DNA of 64,000 nucleotides from Lobulomyces angularis (taxonomy: Eukaryota; Chytridiomycota; Chytridiomycetes; Lobulomycetales; Lobulomycetaceae), in contig JADHYX010000031.1 in the NCBI GenBank assembly GCA_027604685.1, positions 26,746 through 90,745 of the forward strand. The letters run 5' to 3'. The notes under the pieces are model-generated. The model saw only the letters and a program-made list of their open reading frames with translations, was not told the origin of the DNA and ran no database searches. A program made the translations under genes and the position numbers. Shown here in pieces: positions 36,887 to 43,882 of this stretch (positions within the stretch are counted from its first letter, which is position 1; the number at the start of each line of letters is the position of its first letter).

Positions 36887-40226
<3,340 letters not shown>

Positions 40227-40440
40227 AAAACCAAAATTTTTTTGTATTTGCTTTCAGTTTTCTTACATTTTTATTTTTATTTTAATCTTTTATTTTTATT
40301 TTAATTTTTATTTTTAATTTTGTAATATGATAATAAATTAATTTTAATACTTTTAAAACTCTTCTTTTAATACTCATTTACAGAATGTAAGACTTTTTCA
40401 AAGATCTTCTTTGTTTCTCAATTTATTCTTCTATATTACA
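40227..40440. other. 3' flank with (TTTTTATT)n microsatellite
   Basis: Just past the remodeller stop, from about 40267 to 40320, units of TTTTTATT/TTTTAATT repeat about six times. No gene is seen. Confidence 0.6.
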
Positions 40441-40467
40441 AAAGCTTTTTGTACCATTTGGGTATAG

Positions 40468-40985
40468 TTAGCGAAAACAGCCAGGAATATTAGCTCTTAA
40501 GAAAGGAGTCGGTCTGTCACCACCACGCATAAATGAATTAACTACACATAGTTGGTTTAAGGTAGCTGCTTCATCTCGATTCCATAGTCTTGATCTATTC
40601 CATTGTTGCTTATTTTCGCTGTGGCAAAGCGCAACAAACCATGAACAGTTTGAAGAGTTTCTCTATGACAAGCAGGACAAACTTTCCAAGTCTTGTATTC
40701 ATCTAGTTACATAACATCAAAACCTCCTCGTCGAAACATCCCTCTAAAACCTTTTCCTTGGTAGTTACTTAACAAATATTGTTCAAAAAAATAACTCAAC
40801 TGAATATATCCATTCAAAATAAGCTTCTGGGCGGATGGTTATATCGTAACGTATGGTAATATCGTAACATATGCGTTTTGCATTAATATCTTGTGGAGGG
40901 ATAGTTATTATGTGACTAACTAAATCTTTACCATCTAATTGAATATTTTCTAGCAATGAAATGTTGTCGAAAATGCAGAGCGAAC
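40468..40985 (-). pseudogene. Decayed Fanzor/TnpB-like RNA-guided nuclease relic, C-terminal half
   Basis: Reading the minus strand from about 40830 to 40468 gives a RuvC/zinc-ribbon C-terminus, broken by an in-frame stop after GGFDVM and a one-base frameshift after HGLLR. Visible blocks: GKGFRGMFRRGGFDVM, then LDEYKTWKVCPACHRE, TVHGLLR, then in the next frame CHSENKQQWN and RLWNRDEAATLNQL, ending GGDRPTPFLRANIPG. The CPAC pair, HGLLRC and the WNRD(x)A block with the third RuvC Asp are the signature of IS605 OrfB/TnpB and its eukaryotic relative Fanzor; the GDRPxPF tail occurs in fungal copies. The N-terminal RuvC-I part is not recognisable. The protein is dead. Confidence 0.72.
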
Positions 40986-40988
40986 GAG

Positions 40989-41558
40989 TTATGCATTTTC
41001 CTTTAAACTCTTTTTTATTACCTCCCTCTCCCTTTTTAATTCTTGAAGTTCTTCTTCTTGCAAACCACTTGGAAAATTACGTGGGGGATATTGATTGACA
41101 ACAACCTGAGTTATAAAAGTTTTTATCTTTTTACAAATTTTCTTTGCACATTAAATAACAAATAACTTTAAATTTTTTCAATTAAGTTTTTTTTTACCTT
41201 TTAATATTGGTTTCAGACATGTAAGTTGCAAGCTGTTGAAGGTGTTTTATTCCTTCTCCATTATATTTAATCAATTCTTCATAGGATTTAATAAAAGGTA
41301 AAAAATGATCAACCAACAGTTTTGTATCACTACTAATTCTCGATATGTTGCTATCGACTTTGTTTAACTCTGATGAAATGACTTGAAAGGTATCTTTATG
41401 TATGGTAGTTGGTGAATAGCTGGACAGTTTAAAAGATAAAGTGGGTGGTGTGGATGTGGATGTTATTACACTTGCACTTCAAAGACAGTAATCGATCAAG
41501 ATGGATTTGAGTACCTTGAAACGCCTTTTGAAAAGAGTTTTATGGTATATGTTGTCAT
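40989..41558 (-). CDS. Possible small coiled-coil gene or gene fragment
   Basis: A well-composed open stretch on the minus strand (about 41215-41480) reads SSYSPTTIHKDTFQVISSEL, DSNISRISSDTKLLVDHFLP, FIKSYEELIKYNGEGIKHLQ, then QLATYMSETNIK before a GTAAAA donor. A later exon could be GLQEEELQELKREREVIKKS ending at 40989. A first exon MTTYTIKLFSKGVS at 41558 is possible but overlaps the transposase relic antisense. I recognise no family; a BLOC-, BORC- or kinetochore-type helical subunit is imaginable. The gene may have been split by transposon insertion. Confidence 0.35.
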
Positions 41559-42644
41559 TTTTCAAATTTATTCAAATTTATAGAATATGCCAATGTATCT
41601 CAAGAATTTCATTTACAAAGTAACAAGAAACATCATTCAGAAGAATTTAAGTTAGCTACTTTGTATGCTTTTCGAAAAGGAGAATCTATCAAGTTAATAT
41701 GTGTCGGAAACAAAATTACTAGAGCTACTTTTTTACAACTGGAGAATGCAATAGGATGAATCGAAAAGGGTTAAACCACTGAAGAAAACAGGTCGAAAAT
41801 TATTCTTGATCAAGATGGGAAACAAGAATTAATTGAGTTTTTCAACAAATATCCAACAGCTACAAAGGAAGGTGGATCAATTCACGTAAACAACAAATTA
41901 AAACCAAGAACAGTACCTGGTTTTCTTTTACGAGAAAACTTCACCCTTAAAAAAAGTATCTGATGAACCAGAAAACTATCCAGATGAACCAATACTACAA
42001 GAAACCAAAGATTATTACTTGACACTAAAAAAATATCCCTAATGAAAAACGAGTATAAATGGATGAAAGCTTTGTTTACGATAATGAAGCTCCTACTTAT
42101 GGAAGAAGTATCAAGGACAACGAATATTAAGACCTAGAAAGCTACATGGAAGGAGGTAGACCTTCTATTTATCTAGCTATTCGATTAAACTAGTGCATGA
42201 TCCATTGATATCGACAGAAAAAGCTAGAGATGAAAATTTTCTTGATTATGTTCGAAACACACTAGTTCCGAATCTTCAAGAAGGAGACGTGGAAATATGG
42301 GATAGACTTAGTAAAGCTGGACGATGCAAGAATCCAAAGAAATAGCACTATAATCCAGAAGCAAAGGCGTTGATAGAGTCAAAAGGAGCGAGGATTATAT
42401 TTCTACCACCACAAAAGAAATATTTTAATCCAACTAAACTGTATTTGGAACAATAAAGACTAACATTCGAAATTCATACACACTATCCGATGCAGGTAAA
42501 GAAAAAAGAGCAAGAACTGAAGAAGAAGTACGATCAATTGTAAAGGAATCTTGTGATAAAATTACAGAAACTGCAATTGAAGGATATTTTAGAGAACGCG
42601 GAGATGGAAGAGAATTTAAAAGGCTATTATCGGATTTGTTGTAG
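41485..42644 (+). mobile_element. Decayed Tc1/IS630-like DDE transposase
   Basis: A transposase can be followed over about 1.15 kb but shifts frame several times and contains stop codons. Segments in order: HSEEFKLATLYAFRKGESIK (HTH domain), a DQDGKQELIEFFNKYPTATK stretch, PGFLLRENFTLKK, then MDESFVYDNEAPTYGRSIKD (first catalytic Asp), NTLVPNLQEGDVEIWDRL (second Asp), IESKGARIIFLPPQKKYFNP (the FLPPxxxYFNPxE block, with the Glu codon mutated or shifted), and a clean final block TLSDAGKEKRARTEEEVRSI to ERGDGREFKRLLSDLL at the stop near 42644. The family is Tc1/mariner-IS630 cut-and-paste transposase. I could not find clear terminal inverted repeats. Confidence 0.8.
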
Positions 42645-42872
42645 CACTTACATTTATTCGTCATCTTCAAATCTTTTTATAATAAATTCATCTCTAATCA
42701 TATCAATTTTGATTATGTTTGTTATAATTTATTTTCGTATGAGTGGAACATTTAGAAAATCCAATAACAAGCTAAAGTACTTGCCAAATTATAATAGAAG
42801 TTGAAAAAGTACAATATCTATCGACGTATTTTTTTTTTTAATAATACATTTAACTATTTAAAATACTATCCT

Positions 42873-43882
42873 TTACTCTTTCACGACAACCTCAACCTTT
42901 TCGCGAGCTGCATCGTTCTCTACAACATCAGCCAATTTATTATTCTTTAACCACTCCTTTAGTAAAGTAGGTCTGTCAGTGCAAATACCATTGGCACCAG
43001 ACAATAAAACTTCCTCAAACCCTTCAATAGTATTTACACCACCATTTGGCAAACCCCATATTACTACTGGGATTCCTAGCTTGTTTAAAGCCTTAAACCA
43101 TTCAGGTTTCATTAACATTGGTTTGTTGGGGATGCACATGAATTGATACCTGTTTCCTGCATACGCCCAAAAAAATCCTATAACCCATAAAAAATATGCC
43201 CAAAGTACTCCTCTTAAACTAAAACACAGGGGAATGGTATTTCCAACTACAATTTATAAATTATTTAAAACAAAATATGATTCGGTTTTACAATGCTTAT
43301 AGCACATGTCATTCCAGTATGAAACTCCTGATCCCCAAATAGTTAAATGCTCTCTTCTGTATTCTTTAATCATATTTCCTACTTTAAGAACCAACTCCTC
43401 AGGACCACTTTAATAAAGCACTGTTAGCATTTTCAGAGTTTTAAACTGTATTATATATGGTTTACGATTTAATATCAATATGCATTTTTTTATCTTTAAA
43501 TTCATCAAATAAGCATTGTAATTTTGGTATAGAAACATGATCAAGATTATTTTTATCAACAGCATTATTTGGTATCAAGTTTTCGCTCAGTAGAAGCTTG
43601 GGTAATTCGTCGAAGTTGTAGTCACTAATTTTCTTATTTTTAATTCCACAAACTCTTCTAATAAATGAATTAGCAATAAAAATTTGGCTTAAAAGAATAC
43701 TGTAAATTTTTATCGTGAAACACAACGACCTGCTTATCTTTAGTTAGGTGACAGTCTAACTCCAAGATGTCAACATCAAGAACATTTGCTGAGTACCGAA
43801 AGGCTGCAATCGTGTTTTCCACATGTTCGTGAGAACCTCCTCTATGGCTCATAAGCTGTACGTTTGAAAGAAAGTTGTTCAT
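42873..43882 (-). CDS. Glycerophosphodiester phosphodiesterase (GDPD1/lysophospholipase D type)
   Basis: About five exons, near 290 residues, MNNFLSNVQLMSHRGGSHEH to the stop at 42873. The active-site blocks are SHRGGSHEHVENTIAAFRYS (first catalytic His, ENT), DILELDCHLTKDKQVVVFHD (Glu/Asp metal ligands and second His), MHIDIKS, REHLTIWGSG and, near the end, LGIPVVIWGLPNGGVNTIEG and GICTDRP. This pattern resembles the animal GDPD1/4 lysophospholipase D group more than yeast Pgc1. There is no clear TM at the N-terminus, unlike animal GDPD1. It would hydrolyse lysophospholipids or glycerophosphodiesters with a divalent metal. Confidence 0.88.

Follow-up and report, generated by a model that had tools for sequence, protein, structure and literature searches.

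Head-to-head Fanzor1 and Tc1/IS630-like transposase pseudogenes in the chytrid Lobulomyces angularis, and evidence that both belong to one transposon family with shared terminal repeats

Results

Layout of the pseudogene pair

The stretch of DNA analysed here, referred to as the window, comprises 64,000 nucleotides (64 kb) of Lobulomyces angularis and corresponds to C31:26746-90745 within the 20.76-Mb, 533-contig genome that we searched; the original prediction was correct in supposing a chytrid. It carries a Fanzor1 pseudogene on the minus strand and a Tc1/IS630-like transposase pseudogene on the plus strand, arranged head-to-head between two other genes. The features are as follows.

Left of the pseudogene pair: helicase gene of the SNF2 type (Helicase_C above the cut-off, SNF2 below it)
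40443..40487 (-): remnant of the Fanzor right end, consisting of a post-stop block and a decayed, putative omega-RNA-type hairpin at about 40467-40486
40487..41558 (-): decayed Fanzor1 pseudogene; start codon 41558-41556, zinc-ribbon and RuvC-III at about 40492-40760
40769..40775 (-): deletion junction, at which about 815 bp (the RuvC-I/II region) are gone relative to other copies
41559..41593 (no strand): junction between the pseudogenes, with the Fanzor leader and a TATA-like stretch identified by eye
41594..42643 (+): decayed Tc1/IS630-like DDE transposase pseudogene with several frameshifts and stops
42644..42808 (+): 3' non-coding stretch common to the transposase copies in C288, C4 and C23
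Right of the pseudogene pair: GDPD gene

The original prediction read a Fanzor C-terminus on the minus strand, broken by one stop and one frameshift, at a distance of 500-650 bases from the transposase. The C-terminus is indeed present, and homology with other genomic copies extends farther than was claimed, over 40420-41569 (-), that is, from the start codon to past the stop. Yet the damage is greater than proposed, as the 815-bp deletion attests: in the C5 copy, about 815 bp separate the matches to query stretches 3-752 and 745-1101, and other copies also hold the missing middle. Moreover, the two pseudogenes are only 25-35 bp apart, with about 35 bp from the Fanzor1 start codon to the first homologous transposase codon. 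The translation of 40468-40662 (-) reads RNSSNCSWF...WNRDEAATLNQ...GDRPTPFLRANIPG. The hairpin is one base shorter than those of its relatives, and no terminal repeat was recognisable past it.

A profile match to Fanzor/TnpB had been expected for 40468-40985. With Pfam there was none: the window's Fanzor piece matched no family at E<=1, and the window's contig was not among the 7 matches in a search of the genome with PF07282. The sequences of solved structures did provide matches, to SpuFz1 (8gkh, E=0.0032) and Parasitella Fanzor1 (9cf0, E=0.061), and these were far stronger for a 332-aa relative from C216 (SpuFz1, 5.8e-53; Parasitella Fanzor1, 2.3e-36; Guillardia Fanzor1, 1.6e-6), which itself reached only 0.073 with PF07282, below the cut-off. 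The assignment to Fanzor1 thus reflects the sequence relation of the window piece and the C216 relative to characterised Fanzor1 proteins, and was made via the longer relatives, the window's own pieces matching no Fanzor family in Pfam. Two of these pseudogene fragments gave weak Pfam matches to unrelated families. By eye, we identified RuvC and zinc-ribbon candidates in the C216 relative (DPNKR, NEYLTSSICPGC and WNRD); the window copy lacks the RuvC-I/II region.

Matches to PF07282 over the cut-off were observed at L001 (C78), L002, L003, L005 and C189:3585-3728 (L004). We rejected the PF07282 matches as members of the window's family, as this search finds other copies; L001, L002, L003 and L005 have no match to that family. 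L001, the best of these places, is probably Fanzor2/IS607-like, because its best match among solved structures is the TnpB-like protein L79 (9b0l, 7e-17).

The transposase pseudogene lacks its first 3-4 codons and its leader, and its four pieces matched no transposase family in Pfam. The broken plus-strand Tc1/IS630-like DDE transposase of the original prediction was nevertheless confirmed, at 41594-42643, by way of its family: a family representative matched DDE_3 (1.5e-7) and HTH_23 (1.1e-6), and a second family protein, P0086, matched DDE_3 (1.9e-7) and HTH profiles, so that both display the DDE_3 domain and N-terminal HTH of a Tc1/IS630-like transposon. Several among 50 database relatives carry the name transposase in their source records, and the chytrids Clydaea and Phlyctochytrium have relatives too; the best match to a solved structure was weak (0.047). 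A DNA search with the window locus gave 34 matches, made up of the window, 5 on the Fanzor side only and 28 others, among which some contigs are counted more than once.

Two segments that flank most of the pair in the window, 40443-40757 and 43208-43658, occur again side by side at C23:47724-48491 (L010), with identities of 99.7% and 99.1%, respectively. They represent a recent duplication that took in the 3' end of Fanzor and part of the GDPD gene but not the intervening 2.4 kb. We had considered the near-identity of 40443-40757 as a sign of a recent element, and dropped that idea because the duplication also takes in the neighbouring GDPD gene.

Genomic copies and their co-location

Searches of the genome with the Fanzor1 C-terminus (152 aa; 150 of 175 candidates scored) and with the transposase (282 aa) gave 147 and 53 matches, which after merging within 2.5 kb correspond to 101 Fanzor1 and 29 transposase loci; these counts take in fragments, and a copy split across two contigs is counted twice. 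We saw no full-length Fanzor1 free of interruptions: the longest frame without a stop in the list has 332 aa, although some copies run off contig ends. Nor was an intact transposase seen among the genome copies. One Fanzor copy, L009 (C5:78966-82710), contains an inverted second copy of part of the Fanzor middle just upstream of its start (1325-1457 and 2231-2355, 84% over 134 columns).

Six of the 101 Fanzor loci lie within 3 kb of a transposase locus, as compared with 1.06 expected, and the pairs fall into three classes by relative orientation:

C31 (the window) and C109: divergent
C124, C185 and C189: same strand, transposase first
C61: convergent

These numbers bear on one account of the window, namely that two unrelated dead transposons landed side by side by chance. 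Repeats cluster in genomes, and Fanzor and transposase copies also occur in convergent order (C61) or 3-4.6 kb apart (C137, C96 and C173), as chance would allow. However, such an account is at odds with the excess of co-located pairs, with the terminal repeats that the two families share in at least two sub-types, and with the presence of both genes between common ends in C189 and, divergently, in C109 (see below). For the families, the chance reading is already contradicted; for the window pair we consider it improbable.

A terminal repeat shared by both families

By comparison of copies we found that one inverted repeat, TAGTGCTTGNGCAWTATNTTTTTNAACAT, precedes transposase starts and, in inverted form, follows Fanzor stops. 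At <=3 mismatches it has 160 matches in the genome (82 and 78 on the 2 strands), and the reversed control has 0. Among the 100 repeat matches listed, 28 follow the 3' end of a Fanzor copy within 350 bp and are on the strand predicted, against 0.12 expected. On the wrong strand there are none, and on the outer side of the repeat none of the 100 has a Fanzor match within 350 bp. Four of the 100 are left ends within 250 bp of a transposase match. The 72 listed repeats that have no Fanzor match just behind them include some left ends, and not every one is explained. At least 24 of the 100 begin in the first 1000 bases of a contig, where their content is not fully visible (e.g., C91, C171, C184, C281, C289, C415, C441 and C509), which suggests that the assembly is interrupted by young copies of nearly identical sequence.

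The core of the family's terminal inverted repeat is about 29-33 bp long and begins TAGTGCTTG; insertion is at TA, and TA is present at both element ends. The inverted repeats and TA that characterise Tc1/IS630-like transposons are thus found, at the level of sequence, in the family (46 bp in C70, 61 bp in C280 and 33 bp in C258). At least two sub-types of the repeat are common to Fanzor and transposase copies: the GGACAATATG form in C22, C94, C33 and C55, C302, C350, and the GCGCATTATC form in C70, C280 and C216, C137. A third sub-type accompanies both genes only at C124. In the lists used, 11 inward-facing repeat pairs lie within 3.5 kb, of which 6 enclose Fanzor, 2 transposase and 3 neither; the pair in C216 encloses two outward-pointing Fanzor copies, each of which adjoins one repeat.

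The repeat is rich in A and T and occurs often (160 matches), and 3 of these 11 inward pairs hold neither gene, which might be taken to mean that the repeat is a host sequence targeted by both transposons rather than their end. We regard this as scarcely credible: Fanzor-only copies align repeat to repeat, the repeats face inward, and 0 of the 100 listed have a Fanzor match <=350 bp outside.

Element architectures

The family takes four forms: transposase only, transposase plus Fanzor1, Fanzor1 only, and short derivatives. The copies are listed below; the Fanzor1-only and transposase-only ones are complete elements.

Fanzor1-only, C258 (2006 bp), C1 (1988 bp) and C18 (1982 bp): alike from repeat to repeat, 89-93%; C258 has a perfect 33-bp inverted repeat
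Fanzor1-only, C38 (1839 bp): aligns in two pieces, within the same 89-93%
Fanzor1-only, C64 (2188 bp): more distant
Transposase-only, C70: 1447 bp
Transposase-only, C280: 2513 bp, with further, unassigned reading frames
Two-gene, one strand, C189 (5492-7550, 2059 bp): transposase, then Fanzor1
Two-gene, one strand, C185: right repeat with 2 mismatches, left repeat decayed
Two-gene in part, C124: left repeat, transposase residues 1-119, then Fanzor
Two-gene in part, C33: left repeat, start of transposase, then Fanzor
Two-gene in part, C22 (886 bp): part of transposase and the Fanzor right-end hairpin between repeats
Short derivative, C19 (538 bp): start-side Fanzor remnant, hairpin kept
Divergent, in the window's order, C109 (2274 bp): flanked by repeats that face inward and have 2 and 5 mismatches
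Half-way case, C137: left repeat of a Fanzor element and start of a divergent transposase about 50 bp apart

The repeats of C189 differ from the general pattern by 6 (left) and 7 (right) mismatches, and both are recognisable against those of C33 and C55; its Fanzor is SpuFz1-like (2.6e-13 and 1.9e-16 for two short pieces). Copies in which both genes lie between common ends, whose existence the original prediction had anticipated, were accordingly found at C189 and C109, at C185 with a decayed left end, and in part at C124, C33 and C22. Because terminal repeats are shared and both genes lie between common ends in some copies, the conclusion that the Fanzor1 and transposase families make up one transposon family is supported by the sequence comparisons.

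Origin of the window pair

At the window pair itself we could not recognise such ends. Neither around the pair (39600-43500, <=8 mismatches) nor in the pseudogene junction (41559..41593) was a family repeat found, and the terminal repeats and TA of a Tc1/IS630-like transposon were therefore not seen within 39600-43500, nor were both genes found between common ends there. The whole 64 kb contains 4 repeat matches at <=8 mismatches, and shuffles average 6.0. Alignment of the flanks of many copies revealed no common end outside the window pair; both homologies stop near the start codons.

The original prediction took the pair for parts of one dead element. The family relationship that this implies stands, in that the families share ends and some copies hold both genes between them; what is not supported is its application to the window, where the pair is not demonstrably one element because no repeat was found and where the order of genes differs from the commoner transposase-then-Fanzor arrangement on one strand. 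A single two-gene transposon with divergent genes, whose common ends have since decayed, would fit the spacing of only 25-35 bp and the occurrence of the same order at C109 between inward-facing repeats (2 and 5 mismatches). But the genes of C109 are fused inside their coding parts and its two ends are of different sub-types, so that C109 looks like a fusion of two elements; most two-gene copies (C189, C185, C124 and C33) have both genes on one strand; and no repeat was recognisable around the window pair. We consider a single-element origin of the window pair unlikely.

Fusion of two related elements after nested insertion explains the window at least as well. C137, in which about 50 bp separate the left repeat of a Fanzor element from the start of a divergent transposase, likely represents a forerunner of head-to-head fusions, and together with C109 it makes two-element fusion the simpler history for the window. 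By this account, a Fanzor1 element and a transposase element would have fused head-to-head at the window, probably when one inserted beside the leader of the other and the repeats between them were then deleted; both genes would have decayed thereafter. The whole account, in which the two dead genes in the window come from a single chytrid transposon family and were fused head-to-head there, and in which the mechanism is the one that we propose here and below, seems to us quite probable.

The Fanzor right-end hairpin

The Fanzor 3' end contains a recurrent hairpin with a 6-bp stem and the loop (T)TTTC(A/G). We gathered 41 hairpins (31 distinct) and counted 29, leaving out the window's, which is shifted and missing a base, and that of C35, which is not a proven Fanzor right end. 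Cells of the stem were paired in 87.4% versus 74.7 for shuffled sequences, with 0 of 500 shuffles as high, and covariation was 0.395 versus 0.169 (0 of 500 as high), slid versions reaching at most 0.192. There was no excess in pairs changed on both sides (3 versus 2.9 shuffled) or in further pair types (8 versus 8.8). The outer three pairs vary on both sides; the inner three hardly do, and the selection rule favoured these inner three. This pattern is what a putative omega-RNA overlapping the right end would give. Repeats and duplications have been described inside Fanzor1 guide-RNA scaffolds in a 2023 report (PMC10711439). The original prediction had supposed that the genome might still hold intact Fanzor-bearing copies with a guide-RNA end: a putative end of the guide-RNA type is recognisable, and none of the copies was seen fully intact.

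Bases flanking the elements

Of the 29 left ends, 22 have an A before the TA, versus 15 of 36 Fanzor right ends (p=0.007), and for CA the counts are 9 of 29 versus 4 of 36 (p=0.063); the motif was noticed before counting, and these p-values are descriptive. Either CA or TA stands before 17 of the 29 left ends, and before 6 of the 36 Fanzor right ends. In groups built from the inner sequence of the ends, the A was found before the left TA at 15 of 16 ends in two clusters and one singleton, versus 7 of 13 in the third and largest cluster, in which the bias is absent. An initial count, with 33 of 81 ends unclassified, gave A at 15 of 16 versus 14 of 32 and CA at 8 of 16 versus 4 of 32. The final count leaves out 16 of the 81 ends: 13 that have no proven side, two transposase-only right ends (both A) and the C19 left end (T, assigned by pairing only). 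We rejected a uniform CATA target motif, given the CA counts of 9 of 29 versus 4 of 36 and the unbiased largest cluster. SpuFz1 needs CATA (PMC10432273), and the agreement of the flank bias with that motif is suggestive only.

Discussion

The questions at stake are what benefit Fanzor1 brings to its carriers and which enzyme moves SpuFz1-like copies. Fanzor1 nucleases are under development as genome-editing tools. The 2013 paper on Fanzor1 in Tc/mariner elements is that of Bao and Jurka, and the 2023 paper on SpuFz1 that of Saito et al. That Fanzor1 occurs in Tc/mariner elements, with and without a transposase and with shared repeats, has been known since 2013 (PMC3627910). The kind of element is thus already known, and the family in this chytrid is an added member.

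SPu-1 of Spizellomyces punctatus is described in the 2013 paper as a Fanzor1-only element; it measures about 2.1 kb and has repeats of 33 bp and a TA duplication (PMC3627910). A later paper on SPu-1/SpuFz1 (PMC10432273) gives 'CA' before the left repeat, the TAM CATA and short 'ghost' forms, about 550 nt long, in which the RNA end is retained, and states that no transposase was found flanked by Spu-1 repeats. The elements described here resemble SPu-1 in these described features: Fanzor1-only elements are 1.84-2.19 kb long, C258 has a perfect 33-bp repeat, TA is present, and the 538-bp C19 keeps its hairpin as the ghosts keep their RNA end. In contrast to SPu-1, the copies here are more decayed, and a Tc1/IS630-like transposase has the same repeats as Fanzor1.

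The logic is the same in the Mariner-Fanzor1 elements PUl-1/PUl-4 and PGv-1 (PMC3627910), some of which have Fanzor1 and a Mariner-like transposase and others Fanzor1 only, the latter with repeats identical to Mariner members; TA duplications are present. Their hosts differ from ours, PGv-1 belonging to an algal virus, and here one genome has transposase-only, two-gene, Fanzor-only and short forms with shared repeat sub-types. The host of the PUl elements is, from the abbreviation, an oomycete. Bacterial IS605/IS607 include TnpA-TnpB and TnpB-only elements, and the family described here is similar to them in combining a transposase with an RNA-guided nuclease and in having nuclease-only derivatives; however, its transposase is an unrelated DDE enzyme, and its ends have inverted repeats and TA.

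A literature search for Lobulomyces together with transposition or Fanzor found no paper in the collection searched. New here are a rich family in one chytrid with natural derivatives and hairpin covariation, and a transposase whose ends recur at Fanzor1 copies, one of which (C189) is SpuFz1-like.

The shared ends, the architectures, the covariation of the hairpin and the decay are observed; mobility in trans, nuclease activity and a role in retention, along with the fusion history given above, are inferred. The Tc1/IS630-like transposase would cut and paste, in cis or in trans, whatever DNA these repeats enclose. The right-end RNA of Fanzor1 would take flanking host DNA as its guide, Fanzor1 and this RNA would cut the empty site on the sister or allele, and repair of that cut would copy the element back. 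The family might accordingly be a eukaryotic cut-and-paste counterpart of TnpA/TnpB, in which the transposase moves two-gene elements and, in trans, Fanzor1-only (including SpuFz1-like) and RNA-only derivatives, and Fanzor keeps insertions by cutting empty sites with a short motif ending in ATA; this broader proposal is plausible in our view, though it falls short of being probable, and we advance it tentatively. If true, it names the transposase that is missing from the studied Spizellomyces Fanzor elements, and the shared ends point to this transposase as a candidate for the enzyme that moves such Fanzor genes. As about 100 Fanzor1 loci (fragments included), a same-ended transposase and natural deletion forms occur together, mobility in cis and trans, guide use and the flanking motif are thus testable in one organism.

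Two further observations concern sequences with related ends. An extra group of repeat ends (C35:92405, C171:237, C246:819 and C289:366) has an inner sequence that matches no known left or right end. Also, the same repeats are found with other or no recognised genes at L036 (C280) 311-784, in which a 158-aa frame has only a weak coiled-coil match, at L102 (C280:301-1342) and at L091 (C115:54977-55828).
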